A stretch of DNA of 64,000 bases, from NCBI RefSeq assembly GCF_947166265.1, contig NZ_CAMVDO010000003.1, positions 1-64,000 of the forward strand, written 5' to 3'. The position numbers were made by a program, and so were the translations under genes. The DNA is from an uncultured Fibrobacter sp. GTDB lineage: Bacteria > Fibrobacterota > Fibrobacteria > Fibrobacterales > Fibrobacteraceae. Below the pieces are notes generated by a model. That model ran no database searches and was not told the DNA's origin. It saw only the letters and a program-made list of their open reading frames with translations. Positions 10,574-30,546 of the stretch are shown here, in pieces. Each line of letters begins with the position of its first letter. Position 1 is the stretch's first letter.

Positions 10574-11719
10574 CTATTTAAACAGATTCTTCATCTTCTC
10601 GAGGAAGGATTCTTCCTGCGCGGTTTCCTTGTCGTGGCGCAGTTCCGCGAGTTTCTGGTAGAGTTCCTTCTCTTCGCGGCTCAAATCCTTCGGGATTTCC
10701 ACGCCGATGTTCACATAGAGGCTTCCACGGTCACCGCGCTTGTTCAGCGGGTACAGGCCCTGTTCGCGCAGGCGCAAGATGCTCCCGGCCTGAGTGCCGG
10801 CCGCAATCTTGATCTGCACTTCGCTACCGTCCAGCGTCGGGATTCGCTGCGTTCCGCCAAGCACCAGCTTGTGGACCGGCACCTTGATTTCGCAATGCAA
10901 ATCGTCGCCTTCGCGGCTGTAGAAGTCGTCGGGCTTTTCGGCAATGACCGCCAGCAAGTCGCCGCAGGCACCGCCGCGAGGCCCGCAGTTGCCTTCGCCA
11001 CGCAGGTTCAGGTACTGGCCCTCGGCAACGCCCGCCGGAATCTTGATGGAAATTTCTTCCGTTTCCTGCACACGGCCCTCGCCGTGGCAATGCGGGCACG
11101 GTTTCGCGATGACTTCGCCCATGCCGTTACAGGTGGGGCAGGCGCTTTCGGTAATCATCTGGAAAAATCCGCCCGTAGAGCGGCGCACACGACCCGTTCC
11201 ATGACAGGTATCGCAGGTCTTGATGTCCTGGCCGCCCTTGCCGTTACATTCCGTACACGGCGTGTAGCGTTTCAGGCGAACCTTCTTGGTGCAACCCTCG
11301 AAGATTTCCTTGTAACTGAGCGCCACCTTGATCTGCAAGTCGTTTCCGCGCGGAGGCCCGGCCTTACGCGAGCTCCTGCGGCCACCGCCGCCAAAGCCAC
11401 CGAATCCACCACCGAAAATATCGCCAAAGTTCGCGAAAATATCCTCGAAACTGAATCCCTGGCCGCCGAATCCGCCGCCACCAAAACCGCCACCGGGGGC
11501 GTTGAAGCCGAACTGGTCATACTGCTTACGCTTCTCGGGGTTGCTGAGCACATCGTAAGCTTCGGCAGCCTCCTTGAACTTCTCTTCGGCTTCCTTGTCG
11601 CCCGGATTCTTGTCCGGGTGGTACTTGATGGCAAGTTTCTTGTAGGCGTGCTTGATCTCGTCAGCACTCGCGTCCTTGCCGACGCCTAGAACTTCGTAAT
11701 AATCTCTTTTTTCAGCCAT
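10574..11719 (-). CDS. dnaJ: Chaperone protein DnaJ
   Basis: Hsp40 co-chaperone that stimulates DnaK ATPase and delivers unfolded clients. Order: J domain (residues 1-70, HPD in [10 protein letters not shown]), Gly/Phe-rich linker (about 72-115), four CxxCxGxG zinc repeats ([32 protein letters not shown]), then client-binding C-domains. Length 381 aa is standard. It is downstream of dnaK on the same strand with a 264-bp repeat-containing gap and no promoter I could recognise in the gap, so it may be transcribed from the dnaK promoter. Confidence 0.97.
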
Positions 11720-11983: not shown

Positions 11984-13885
11984 TTAGTCAACCACTTCCG
12001 CGTCGACGACTTCCGGGCCATCGCCCTTCTTGTCGTTCTTCGGCTGTTCAGAAGCACCCGGCTGCGGACCCGGCTGAGCCTGGTTTGCACCGGCGGCCTG
12101 GGCCATGGAGCTGATCATGCCCTGGAGCTTGTCCATAGCAGCCTTGATCTCTTCCTTGGTGCCGTTGTCCTTCTTGGCCTTGATGTCGTCGATAGCAGCC
12201 TGGAGCTGGCTCTTGGTGTCGGCCGGGAGCTTGTCGCCAAATTCCTTGAGCTGACCTTCGGCCTGGTAAGCCATCTGTTCGGCCTGGTTCCTGATGTCCA
12301 CCAGTTCGCGCTGTTCCTTGTCCTTGGCAGCGTTGGCTTCGGCATCCTTCACCATCTTGTTGATTTCGTCTTCAGACAAGCCGCTGGAAGAAGTAATCTT
12401 GATGGACTGTTCCTTGCCGGTTTCCTTGTCCTTGGCAGACACGTGCACAATGCCGTTTGCGTCGATATCGAAGGTCACTTCGATCTGCGGCACGCCACGC
12501 GGCTTCTTCGGGAGGTCGGTCAAGTCGAACTTGCCGAGCGTACGGTTGTCGCGGGCAAATTCGCGTTCGCCCTGGAGCACGTGAATCGTCACAGCCGGCT
12601 GGTTGTCTTCGGCGGTGGAGAACACCTGGCTCTTCTTGGTCGGAATCGTGGTGTTACGGTCGATGAGCTTGGTCATCACGCCACCGAGAGTTTCGATACC
12701 CAAGGAAAGCGGGGTCACGTCGAGGAGCAACACGTCCTTCACGGAGGAGTCGCCGCTAAGCACGGCACCCTGGACGGCGGCACCGATAGCCACCACTTCG
12801 TCCGGGTTCACAGTCTTGTTCGGTTCCTTGCCGAAGAACTTCTTCACGGCTTCCTGAACGGCCGGAATACGGGTAGAACCACCGACCAGAATCACCTCGT
12901 CGATTTCGCTCAGGGAGAGGCCGGAGTCGGCGATAGCCTTGCGGCAGGGTTCCATGGAGCGTTCCACCAGGTGGGCGGTCAGCTGGTCAAACTTTGCACG
13001 GCTGAGCGTGAGGTCCAAGTGTTTCGGGCCCGAAGCGTCGGCAGTGATGAAGGGGAGGTTGATGTTCGTAGAAGTCGTGGCAGAAAGGTCGATCTTCGCC
13101 TTTTCCGCGGCATCCTTCAAACGCTGCAGGGCCATCTTGTCCTTCTTCAGGTCGATGCCCGGATTGTCCTTCTTGAATTCGTCGTTGATCCAGTCGATAA
13201 TCACTTCGTCGAAGTTGTCACCGCCGAGCATCGTATCGCCGTTGGTGGCCTTCACGCTGAACATGCCGTCGTCGATTTCAAGGATGGAAATATCGAACGT
13301 ACCACCACCGAGGTCATACACGGCGACCTTTTCGCTCTTCTTGGAGTCAAGACCGTAGGCAAGGGCTGCTGCCGTCGGTTCGTTCACGATACGCAGCACT
13401 TCGAGGCCAGCAATCTTACCGGCATCCTTCGTAGCCTGACGCTGGGAGTCGTTAAAGTAGGCAGGCACCGTAATCACGGCCTGCGTCACCGGCTGGCCCA
13501 GGTAGTCTTCGGCAATCTTCTTCATGGTCTGGAGAACCATGGCCGAAATCTCGGGAGGAGCGAACTGCTTGTCGTCCACCTGCACGCGGACCGGGTCGGA
13601 ACCCGTGCCCACCAGCTTGTAGGGCATGTTCTTTTCGGCAGCGGAGCATTCGCCAGCCGTACGGCCCATGAAACGCTTGATGGAGTAAATCGTCTTTTCG
13701 GGGTTGGTGATGGCCTGACGCTTTGCCACGTGGCCCACCAGACGTTCGCCGTTCTTGCCGAAAGCGACAATGGACGGGGTGGTGCGGAAACCTTCCGCGT
13801 TAGCGATCACGACCGGCTTGCCGCCTTCCATCACGGACACGCAGCTGTTGGTCGTACCAAGGTCAATACCGATAATCTTGCTCAT
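11984..13885 (-). CDS. dnaK: Chaperone protein DnaK (Hsp70)
   Basis: ATP-driven Hsp70 chaperone, 633 aa. ATPase domain: [11 protein letters not shown] (phosphate 1), [46 protein letters not shown] (phosphate 2), [14 protein letters not shown] (adenosine). Linker [15 protein letters not shown], substrate-binding domain, helical lid and a tail ending EVVDAEVVD, close to the usual EEVD-like end. It starts at 13885 with a GGAG-type RBS. Upstream lies a near-perfect sigma-54 promoter and two palindromes, unlike the usual sigma-32 or CIRCE control. Confidence 0.98.
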
Positions 13886-13961
13886 AATGAGTCTCCTATT
13901 TTAAATTCTTGCCGCCCGCGAATCATTCCGAAAGGGGGCGATTTTTTACGCCCATACATAA

Positions 13962-13976
13962 GCAAAACCCGTGCCA
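13962..13976 (-). promoter_or_regulatory. Sigma-54 (-24/-12) promoter of dnaK
   Basis: The minus strand reads TTGGCACGGGTTTTGCT, matching the consensus TGGCACG-N4-TTGC exactly. It ends 77 nt before the dnaK start codon. The grpE promoter at 29522 has the same sequence type and distance. Confidence 0.75.
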
Positions 13977-14006: not shown

Positions 14007-14072
14007 TTGTTTCGTTCTGAAACAAGATAGCGGCGAAAAAAGGGGTAAAACTGGCTTGTTTCATAATGAAAT
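14007..14072 (-). promoter_or_regulatory. Two palindromic activator-type sites upstream of the dnaK sigma-54 promoter
   Basis: Site 1 (14007-14025): TTGTTTC-N5-GAAACAA, perfect 7-bp arms. Site 2 (14058-14072): GTTTCATAATGAAAT. The centres are 49 bp apart, at roughly -66 and -115 from the predicted start, where enhancer-binding proteins bind. The grpE site at 29554 has the core GTTTCATAAT. Confidence 0.6.
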
Positions 14073-15759: not shown

Positions 15760-15958
15760 TTGTAAACTTAAAAATTGGGAGTGGAACGGGTAACCCGACT
15801 GTGTCATTTAGGCTTTGAAGCCTGTTCAGGACGAAGGCACCCGCCCCATTCCTTCCCTTAAGCCCGGACAGTTTGATGGCCCGTGCAGGCCGGATAATTT
15901 GGATAATGGGACATAGGGAAGATCTCCCATGATTAAATATAGCAACAAGGAGTCCGGT
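15760..15958 (+). ncRNA. Candidate IS110 bridge RNA region
   Basis: The non-coding part upstream of the transposase is rich in short complementary blocks (GGGAGTGGAACGGG / CCCGCCCCATTCC, GGCTTTGAAGCC, AACGGGTAACCCG). IS110 elements of the IS621 type encode a structured bridge RNA here that pairs with donor and target DNA. Assignment rests on position and fold potential only. Confidence 0.45.
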
Positions 15959-16921
15959 ATGGAAACATGGATTGGAATAGACATTTCAAAAGACACATTC
16001 GACGCCGCCTGGGAGCAGGATGGAAAAAAGGAACATGAGAAGTTCTCGAATACGACCGCCGGATTCAAGGCTCTTCTAAAGTGGGTGCCCGATGGTTCCA
16101 AGTTTGTTATGGAGGCTACGGGCACATACCATTTGCGGTGCGCGACATTTCTTGCAGGAAGTGGACTCCATGTTTCCGTCGAGAACCCTCTTGCGATTAA
16201 GCGTTTCATTCAAAGCGATCTTCGTCGATGCAAGAACGACGTGTCCGATTCGTTCTCTATCGCAAAATATGGTCGTGAGAAAAGTCCCAGGGCATGGACG
16301 GTTCCGTCGGAGGAAGCCCGTGAAGCTAGACGGCTGCAGGGGTTGATTGAACTTTTGCGGGAGCAAATCTCCGCTCAGACGAACTATTTCCATGCACTTC
16401 AGCAAGAGGACCTGAAGGACGACGCACAGAAGCTGTGCAAGGCGTCTATCGCCAAGATGAAGGTTGCCATTGCCGATGCAGAAGACAGGTTTAAATCGAT
16501 TGTGAGCAGGTTTTGGAAAGACGATGTCGAGCGGATATCCTCCATTCCCGGAGTGGGCAAGATGTCGGCATGCAAGCTGATTGCCAAGGTAGAGGATTTC
16601 AACCGCTTTGAGGATTCCAGGCAGTTCATGTCGTGGCTGGGGATGACTCCAAGGAACATGCAGTCAGGAACCAGCATCCATGTGAATGGGGGCATAACCA
16701 AGATGGGGGACGGGCGCTTGAGAACGCAGTTCTATATGTGTGCTGTTTCCGCTATTCAGTCCAATGGCCGGTGTAGGGCCATGTATGAGCGTATGGTCAG
16801 CAAGGGAAAGCCGGTCAAAGTAGCCCTCGTAGCTGTCGCTTGCAAGCTCCTTAAAACTGCATACGCACTTGTGACGAAAAAACAGATGTATAACGCTAAT
16901 TTTTTACAGTTTGCCCCTTGA
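15959..16921 (+). CDS. IS110 family transposase
   Basis: 320 aa. N-terminal RuvC-like DEDD domain: GIDISKDTFDAAW (first Asp), VMEATGTYH (Glu), KNDVSDSFSIAKYG (Asp region). C-terminal Transposase_20 domain: ISSIPGVGKMSACKLIAKV, FMSWLGMTPRNMQSGTS and a Ser/Gly-rich stretch, followed by the usual basic tail. The start at 15959 has AAGGAG 6-7 nt upstream; a longer frame opens at 15929 without an RBS. The gene appears intact, so the element may be active. Confidence 0.93.
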   Translation: METWIGIDISKDTFDAAWEQDGKKEHEKFSNTTAGFKALLKWVPDGSKFVMEATGTYHLRCATFLAGSGLHVSVENPLAIKRFIQSDLRRCKNDVSDSFSIAKYGREKSPRAWTVPSEEAREARRLQGLIELLREQISAQTNYFHALQQEDLKDDAQKLCKASIAKMKVAIADAEDRFKSIVSRFWKDDVERISSIPGVGKMSACKLIAKVEDFNRFEDSRQFMSWLGMTPRNMQSGTSIHVNGGITKMGDGRLRTQFYMCAVSAIQSNGRCRAMYERMVSKGKPVKVALVAVACKLLKTAYALVTKKQMYNANFLQFAP

Positions 16922-28795: not shown

Positions 28796-29446
28796 TTATT
28801 TCCCGGAGGAGACGATCACCTTTGCGGTCTTCAAAATCTTGTTCTTAAGCTTGTAGCCCTTCTGGAATACGGTCACCACGTGGCCTTCGGGTACGGTCTC
28901 GCTGGGCTGCTGCATCAGCGCTTCGTGCATGTTCGGGTCGAATTCCGCGCCGGTGGGGTCGATTTGCTCGAGGCCCGCGTCGGTCAAAATCTTTGCGAAC
29001 TGGTTGTAAATCATCTGCATGCCTTTTTCGAAGGCTTCCAAATCCTGGGCCTTGTTTTCGCTCGCGAAGGCGCGCTCGAAGTTGTCCTGGACTTCGGAGA
29101 GTTTCTCCAGGAGCTTGCCGTTCGCGGTCTCGATGAGTTCGAGCTGTTCCTTGGCGGTGCGGCGGCGGTAGTTGTCGAATTCGGCCATCAAGCGGAGGGT
29201 TCGGTCGTTGGCGTCGGCGAGTTGTTGCTTCAGGACTTCTTCAGCAGAGGGGGCGGCTTCGGCGGCTTCAGCGGGTTGTTCGGCGCTAGATGTCTCTTCG
29301 GCAGGCTCAGGGCCCTTATCACCACCGGTGGGCGAGCTTGTAGAATCATCCATTTTCATTGCTTCTTCGGCGGCCTTGAGCACGTCTTGTTCGAATTTTG
29401 CCTTTTCTTCTGTGGTCGGTTCCTGCTGATTCAAATCTTCTGCCAT
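28796..29446 (-). CDS. grpE: Nucleotide exchange factor GrpE
   Basis: Removes ADP from DnaK. 216 aa with a long acidic, Glu/Ala-rich N-terminus (to about 75), coiled-coil dimer region (LMAEFDNYRRRTAKEQLEL), then the beta domain with MQMIYNQF, FDPNMHEALMQQPSETVPEGHVVTVFQKGYKLKNKILKTAKVIVSSG. It lies apart from dnaK-dnaJ, 16 kb away, but has the same type of sigma-54 promoter and palindrome. Confidence 0.96.
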   Translation of the reverse strand: MAEDLNQQEPTTEEKAKFEQDVLKAAEEAMKMDDSTSSPTGGDKGPEPAEETSSAEQPAEAAEAAPSAEEVLKQQLADANDRTLRLMAEFDNYRRRTAKEQLELIETANGKLLEKLSEVQDNFERAFASENKAQDLEAFEKGMQMIYNQFAKILTDAGLEQIDPTGAEFDPNMHEALMQQPSETVPEGHVVTVFQKGYKLKNKILKTAKVIVSSGK

Positions 29447-29521
29447 TTTCGGTTTATTCCTCTAAAATCGTCCAACTTTGAGAGTCCGGACGCTAGTTTT
29501 ACAGTTTTCGAGGCAAATGTA

Positions 29522-29536
29522 GCAAAAACCGTGCCA
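29522..29536 (-). promoter_or_regulatory. Sigma-54 (-24/-12) promoter of grpE
   Basis: Minus strand TTGGCACGGTTTTTGCT: an exact TGGCACG-N4-TTGC. It ends 76 nt before the grpE ATG (77 nt at dnaK). Confidence 0.75.
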
Positions 29537-29553
29537 ATTTCAAAGCGGGGGAG

Positions 29554-29574
29554 AACGTTTCATAATAAAACGTT
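29554..29574 (-). promoter_or_regulatory. Palindrome upstream of the grpE sigma-54 promoter
   Basis: AACGTTT-N7-AAACGTT, perfect 7-bp arms around CATAATA. Its core GTTTCATAAT equals site 2 at dnaK. Centre about 30 bp upstream of the -24 box. A second inverted repeat ATATTC-N7-GAATAT is at 29581-29599. Confidence 0.6.
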
Positions 29575-29655: not shown

Positions 29656-30546
29656 ATGGATTTACTGATTACGATACCGATTATTTTGGGATCGATTCTG
29701 ATGGTGGCAAACATTGTCAGGTATTTTTTGTTTATCCATGGCTCCCATGACGTTCTTTCGGCAGGAAGTCGCCGCGACCGTATCTGGAAATCCATTGCAG
29801 GTATGTTGCTGGTGTTTTTCCTGCTTGGTTACCTTTTCAGTGCGTTTATTGGTGAACCTGACCTTGTGATGGCGATGATTCTGTTTGGAGGAAGCATTTT
29901 TGTCGCTATAGTCCTTACGTTGATGTTCAACTTGCTCGATACGGCAAAATCCAGGAGTATCGACATTGCAGAAGTTTTGGTGGGAGTTATCGATGCAAGG
30001 GACCCGAACCTGAACGGACACAGTCGCCATGTACAGAAGTTGACAATGCTTTTCTATGAGTATTTGCCTGCAAGTATCAGACGCGGCATCAATCCGGTTA
30101 GCCTAGAATATGCGGCCCTAATGCACGATGTCGGCAAGCTCGGTGTCCCTGAATCGATATTGAATAAACCTGCAAAACTCGAACCAGAGGAATGGGCGAT
30201 AATGAAACGCCACCCCAAAGTCGGCGTGAAAATTCTGGAGCCGCTCCAGACCTTTAACCATATTACGGACTGGATTCTTTTTCACCACGAACGAATCGAC
30301 GGAAATGGTTACTATAGCCAGCCCGGCGACCAGATTCCCTTGCCGGCAAGGATCATTTCTATCGCCGACACATACTCGGCAATCACGATGCGACGTTCCT
30401 ACAAGGCTCCGAAAACTCACGAGGATGCCATTCAGATTATCAAGGACGTTGCCGGAACACAGCTCGACGCAGAACTCGTCAAGTATTTCATGACAATTCC
30501 CAAGGAACGGCTGATTCAGTGTATTCCCGAACAGGTGAAGTACTGA
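29656..30546 (+). CDS. Membrane HD-GYP-like domain protein (putative c-di-GMP phosphodiesterase)
   Basis: 296 aa. Membrane helices at about 3-25, 45-64 and 71-93, then an HD domain with EYAALMHDVGKLGVPE (metal-binding HD about 157-158), MKRHPKVG, FHHERIDGNGYY and ISIADTYSAITMRRSYK. These are the HD-GYP landmarks, except that the GYP tripeptide reads GYY. Known HD-GYP enzymes hydrolyse cyclic di-GMP; activity with this variant is uncertain. It is divergent from grpE with a 210-bp control region between them. A GGDEF protein is encoded at 45.3 kb. Confidence 0.82.
   Translation: MDLLITIPIILGSILMVANIVRYFLFIHGSHDVLSAGSRRDRIWKSIAGMLLVFFLLGYLFSAFIGEPDLVMAMILFGGSIFVAIVLTLMFNLLDTAKSRSIDIAEVLVGVIDARDPNLNGHSRHVQKLTMLFYEYLPASIRRGINPVSLEYAALMHDVGKLGVPESILNKPAKLEPEEWAIMKRHPKVGVKILEPLQTFNHITDWILFHHERIDGNGYYSQPGDQIPLPARIISIADTYSAITMRRSYKAPKTHEDAIQIIKDVAGTQLDAELVKYFMTIPKERLIQCIPEQVKY

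Follow-up and report, generated by a model that had tools for sequence, protein, structure and literature searches.

The window, by which we mean the whole 64,000-nt stretch of DNA that was analysed, carries grpE (28796..29446, minus strand, 216 aa) and, 16 kb away, dnaK (11984..13885, minus strand, 633 aa), with dnaJ (10574..11719, minus strand, 381 aa) downstream of dnaK. All three were read as open reading frames, and GrpE homologues were retrieved using grpE as the query. Some relatives (L059, L062) have grpE and dnaK side by side. In the window the interval between the two contains a transposase-like gene (15929-16921, plus strand; IS110-type by eye), and an HD-GYP-like gene (29656-30546, plus strand) is divergent from grpE.

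Promoter boxes and palindromes in the window and its genome

Each of the two genes is preceded by a perfect-consensus sigma-54 promoter on the minus strand. The grpE promoter, TGGCACGGTTTTTGCT, occupies 29521..29536 and is kept before grpE across the Fibrobacteraceae; read on the minus strand from 29537 to 29521 the box is TTGGCACGGTTTTTGCT, and it lies 74 nt from the grpE ATG. The dnaK promoter, TGGCACGGGTTTTGCT (13961..13976, read from 13976 to 13961), is conserved genus-wide and lies 75 nt from the dnaK ATG. A preliminary description of the window had put the grpE box 76 nt before the gene and at almost the same distance as in dnaK, and this equality held. No other perfect match to TGGCAC-N5-TTGCW is found in the window, and the criterion of a 10-bp GG-GC spacing for a sigma-54 promoter is met at both genes. 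When one mismatch was allowed the window contained 5 matches, compared to 2.2 expected.

Upstream of both promoters are palindromes that we predict to be activator sites. The grpE site, GTTTTATTATGAAAC in minus-strand reading (29557..29571, no strand assigned), lies 20 bp upstream of the -24 box and has corresponding sites in relatives; its arms reach 29554-29574, the interval at which AACGTTT-N7-AAACGTT occurs exactly. The start of the HD-GYP-like gene is approximately 80 bp from this palindrome, and between the two an imperfect GATATTC-N7-GAATATC was noticed by eye, unlisted by the repeat finder (minimum length 12). At dnaK two sites are predicted. The proximal one, GTTTCAGAACGAAAC (14009..14023, no strand assigned), lies 32 bp from the -24 box on its upstream side; the distal one, ATTTCATTATGAAAC in minus-strand reading (14058..14072), carries one mismatch and lies 81 bp upstream of that box, at a distance of 49 bp from its neighbour. 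Exactly two copies of GTTTCATAAT are present in the window, at 14058 and 29557. The unit common to both promoters is the 15-base GTTTY-N5-RAAAC, found once at grpE and twice at dnaK.

The preliminary description had proposed a shared sigma-54/palindrome architecture at the two genes with AACGTTT-N7-AAACGTT as the palindrome. The architecture held, and had been understated. The longer palindrome was correct as an exact occurrence at grpE but not in its boundary, and we have dropped it as the regulatory unit because it is a local extension, only GTTTY-N5-RAAAC being common to dnaK and to relatives; the core chosen had also missed the second and better copy at dnaK (14009-14023).

Pattern and family searches are the basis of the genome-wide statements that follow. 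In the window's genome, perfect sigma-54 boxes numbered 21, compared to 4 for the reversed-pattern controls. The exact palindrome GTTTC-N5-GAAAC showed no genome-wide enrichment, with 7 places compared to 15 for the reversed pattern, indicating that the palindrome alone is no evidence for regulation and that its proximity to a promoter is what carries weight. Three of the 7 exact sites, those at dnaK, htpG, and secA, have a perfect box no more than 36 bp away; by our own estimate, about 0.005 such cases would be expected by chance. With one mismatch allowed in the palindrome, a perfect box with a nearby palindrome is found at dnaK, grpE, groES, secA, and htpG, so that a regulon of two genes proved too narrow a scope. 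The clpB gene has a perfect box, but its palindrome is weak. Several other perfect boxes, lacking a palindrome, precede glnB-, glutamine-synthetase- and gltB-like genes, which we take to be nitrogen-metabolism genes, their N-termini having been recognised by eye. The absence of the palindrome from sigma-54 genes of this nitrogen type argues that only some sigma-54 genes are marked by it. At loci L019 / L356 a sigma-54 consensus box lies just upstream of a gene for a sigma-70-type factor, which scores below the RpoS and RpoH cut-offs.

Conservation and helical phasing

We searched related genomes for a composite site, a palindrome together with a nearby sigma-54 box. A first search of 168 genomes of the phylum found matches in 63, with no matches to the reversed pattern. 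A search allowing wider gaps, with palindrome and box within 65 bp, found the composite site in 73 of 111 Fibrobacteraceae genomes, again with a reversed-pattern control of 0, and among high-quality genomes of the family the proportion was 45 of 56. Downstream genes were read only for matches with a locus, or for those fetched because they departed from the usual dnaK sequence; truncation left a few loci without a readable downstream gene, and the other unread matches carry dnaK-type or grpE-type sequences already met. With these limits, every distinct family match that was read precedes dnaK, grpE, groES, clpB, or secA, with a single exception (L197). That match, the low-complexity GTTTTTTCAAAAAAC, precedes a non-chaperone gene and probably arose by chance. 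The grpE sites agree in named genomes, including Fibrobacter succinogenes MAGs and F. intestinalis. A failure of boxes and palindromes to be conserved in relatives would have refuted the preliminary description; this was not borne out, both being conserved across the Fibrobacteraceae at the genes listed.

Outside the Fibrobacteraceae, just 3 of 57 genomes had the composite site at chaperone genes. In G042, of sister family f2, GTTTCAAAACGAAAC-N9-TGGCACGGTTCTCGCT, that is a palindrome and a sigma-54 box, stands ahead of grpE-dnaK-dnaJ followed by the gene for the candidate activator E3 described below. In G167, which bears HrcA, a palindrome and box lie between grpE and dnaK; their coexistence with HrcA raises the possibility that the circuit predates the loss of HrcA. 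Candidates from another family (L029 and L030), with poor palindromes and no chaperone gene, were rejected, as was one in G040 (L291) with no chaperone gene nearby. Two Bacteroidales grpE loci (L147, L151) have TGGCACATTGTTTGTT upstream, near a sigma-54 box.

The distance from palindrome to -24 box takes values of 10-11, 19-21, 31-32, 41-42, 49-53, and 61-64 bp, a period of 10.2-10.3 bp that corresponds to whole helical turns. The mean vector was 0.81 for the 25 distinct gene/spacing pairs. Since relatives do not count as independent samples, adjacent spacings at any one gene were also collapsed, giving 14 clusters and a mean vector of 0.91. For neither vector was any of 20,000 random sets, drawn uniformly over 5-65 bp, as periodic. 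Longer spacings of 83-84, 103, and 113 bp are within 2 bp of the period; some outgroup spacings fit worse, those of 9 and 64 bp being off by 1.7 and 2.3 bp. At dnaK, where the second site is kept at 49-51 bp in most promoters examined, the pair of sites shifts together by about one turn between lineages (32/81 compared to 21/70-71). Quantisation of the spacing at approximately 10.2 bp implies contact from one face of the helix. The criterion of an upstream inverted repeat on a constant helical face is fulfilled except at htpG; that a protein binds there is an inference.

At htpG the palindrome comes after the promoter instead of before it, 36-37 bp past the -12 box in all 30 of the 30 genomes (L324-L353), and the gap from palindrome to ATG ranges from 45 to 166. 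We cannot explain this placement, which fits a repressor or an unusual activator.

The candidate activator E3

The window's genome encodes six full sigma-54 activators. One of these, E3 (L235:4135-5601), has the domains expected of an NtrC-type protein, namely a sigma-54-interacting AAA+ domain (PF00158, E=6.6e-71) and a Fis-type HTH (PF02954, E=8.8e-15); structure prediction and comparison were likewise consistent with a protein of the NtrC/NtrX type. Across five genomes (G000, G144, G145, G041, and G029), E3 alone among the activators had a best match in every one, in a comparison that omitted one candidate from G041 and three from G144 for want of a clear P-loop by the filter used. It is present in 107 of 111 Fibrobacteraceae genomes and in all 56 of the high-quality ones.

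The genomic position of E3 links it to the chaperones. In families f3, f4, f13, and f14 the gene order is hrcA-grpE-dnaK-dnaJ-E3, in f5 grpE-dnaK-dnaJ is followed by E3, and G041 of sister family f2 has a dnaJ-E3 pair. At one f4 locus (L270) the ORF caller gave an antisense frame at the expected dnaJ position, and at L273 neither dnaJ nor the activator was called. The Fibrobacter E3 gene is not beside dnaJ; its locus holds a histidine kinase and a single receiver protein, so a phosphorelay input is not excluded. Outside class Fibrobacteria an E3-like gene often adjoins ybgC, encoding a YbgC-like thioesterase (L280, L282, L283, L285-L288).

The recognition helix of E3, LGISRxTLWRK, is nearly invariant. 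Its receiver is less constant: the phosphoacceptor position is Glu in 26 of 26 copies examined from genus Fibrobacter, which thus lack the phosphorylatable Asp, Asp in the three g6 copies, and Ser in G145 and several other families. From the receivers lacking this Asp we infer a signal other than plain phosphorylation, which might be titration by DnaK/DnaJ. The GAFTGA loop is intact in some E3 orthologs and reads GSYTGS or GAYTGS in most Fibrobacter copies. Tree support was 0.95 for families f1-f5 and 0.46 for the whole set; deep orthology of E3 is weakly supported.

Established heat-shock regulators were also sought. HrcA (PF01628) had no match in any Fibrobacteraceae genome and was present in 32 of 168 genomes of the phylum. 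Scanning of the operon loci gave no convincing CIRCE match. Of the three larger sigma-70-type proteins in the window's genome, none reached the RpoH cut-off, the other three matches being unscanned.

A proposed sigma-54 chaperone regulon, its rivals and known systems

We consider it likely that dnaK, grpE, groES, clpB, secA, and probably htpG form a sigma-54 chaperone regulon run by an NtrC-type activator, E3 being the best candidate. The sequences themselves show the sites with their conservation and helical phasing, the gene set, the failure to detect HrcA across the Fibrobacteraceae, and the association of E3 with dnaJ in genomes. Binding by E3, its action as an activator, a signal of heat or misfolded protein, and feedback from chaperones are inferences made without binding, transcript, or heat data. 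In the proposed mechanism, an E3 dimer would bind GTTTC-N5-GAAAC and bound E3 would assemble on one face of the DNA, with ATP as the energy source for opening the sigma-54 polymerase that waits at the -24/-12 box; its input would be a non-phosphorylation signal, such as the DnaK/DnaJ titration suggested above. The common enhancer-binding regulator that had been postulated for the two genes is supported by the conserved boxes and palindromes and their phased spacing, and a specific candidate can be named, with no binding data and no experiment on heat as the signal. Counting against the E3 model are the downstream palindrome of htpG, the low number of genomes outside the family with the composite site, the weak clpB site in the window's genome, the ybgC neighbourhood, the position of the Fibrobacter E3 gene away from dnaJ, and the weak support for deep E3 orthology.

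The rival that survives best retains the sigma-54 regulon and its site and assigns binding to another of the six activators, for example one of the GAF types, the one without a recognised N-terminal domain, or the short one. In its favour, six full activators are encoded, there are binding data for none, and no perfect copy of the motif precedes the gene for E3 itself in Fibrobacter. Against it, only E3 was matched in all five genomes, including G029, whose grpE has the site, and only E3 was seen in dnaK operons; we judge this rival unlikely. More doubtful still is the possibility that the palindrome is the operator of a repressor replacing HrcA, with the sigma-54 promoters activated by something else. 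The failure to detect HrcA in the Fibrobacteraceae leaves room for a repressor, and the invariable position of the htpG palindrome in the leader would suit one; however, whole-turn spacing from 10 to about 64 bp upstream and the paired dnaK sites are typical of activators, and a repressor would have no need to lie so far upstream and in phase. That the boxes are fortuitous, with ordinary promoters in use and the palindrome serving another purpose, can be all but dismissed, for although single near-matches do arise by chance and transcript data are lacking, the family-wide conservation with zero control matches and the phased spacing speak against it.

Returning to the proposed E3-driven regulon, a bolder reading is that the heat-shock response of the Fibrobacterota depends on a dedicated sigma-54 activator whose gene accompanies those for DnaK/DnaJ and which is governed by chaperone availability, not phosphorylation. 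We lean slightly against it on present evidence; if true, it would represent a basic design that is neither that of RpoH nor that of repressors of the HrcA kind. How chaperones are controlled in bacteria without HrcA and RpoH is largely an open question, and for a phylum of major plant-fibre degraders our analysis offers a concrete circuit of named promoters, a site, a spacing rule, and an activator candidate, each step of which is directly testable. The dnaJ-activator gene pair can serve as a marker for spotting the same design elsewhere.

Compared to HrcA/CIRCE, the proposed system shares palindrome-based control of the same genes, and where HrcA occurs in the phylum hrcA often heads the same operon; HrcA differs in being a repressor with another palindrome. 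Like the sigma-32 (RpoH) regulon, it would dedicate an alternative sigma factor to chaperone transcription, but sigma-54 requires an ATP-driven activator, and no RpoH passed the cut-off among the proteins scanned in the window's genome. E3 resembles NtrC/NtrX/ZraR-type proteins in its receiver-like, AAA+, and Fis-type HTH domains, and differs in scoring below every equivalog cut-off displayed, in its degenerate receiver, and in its linkage to dnaJ.

Sigma-54 control of chaperones is already known as a prediction in other phyla and is listed for rhizobial groESL. Our literature search, limited to open-licence papers, found nothing relevant on an activator in a dnaK operon; within that literature, the Fibrobacterota regulon, its site, its spacing rule, and the dnaJ-linked activator are new. 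The arrangement in Fibrobacter and its relatives looks to be a little-known way to run a bacterial heat-shock response, heat induction being inferred without data. In Bacteroidota and Planctomycetota, a matrix-based prediction has the genes for GroEL, GroES, GrpE, DnaK, and DnaJ enriched among sigma-54 targets (PMC12316311, 2025), where the statement on grpE of B. thetaiotaomicron cites a Blattabacterium paper (reference 80 therein). That study likewise places chaperone genes among sigma-54 targets, but it does not mention Fibrobacter, and the passages bearing on the prediction give no activator, activator site, or spacing rule. In rhizobia, groESL is among the known targets of NifA (PMC4999443), so that chaperonin genes are there also driven by an activator with sigma-54; the rhizobial case is bound to nitrogen fixation, whereas that of Fibrobacter concerns a general chaperone set and a dnaJ-linked activator.
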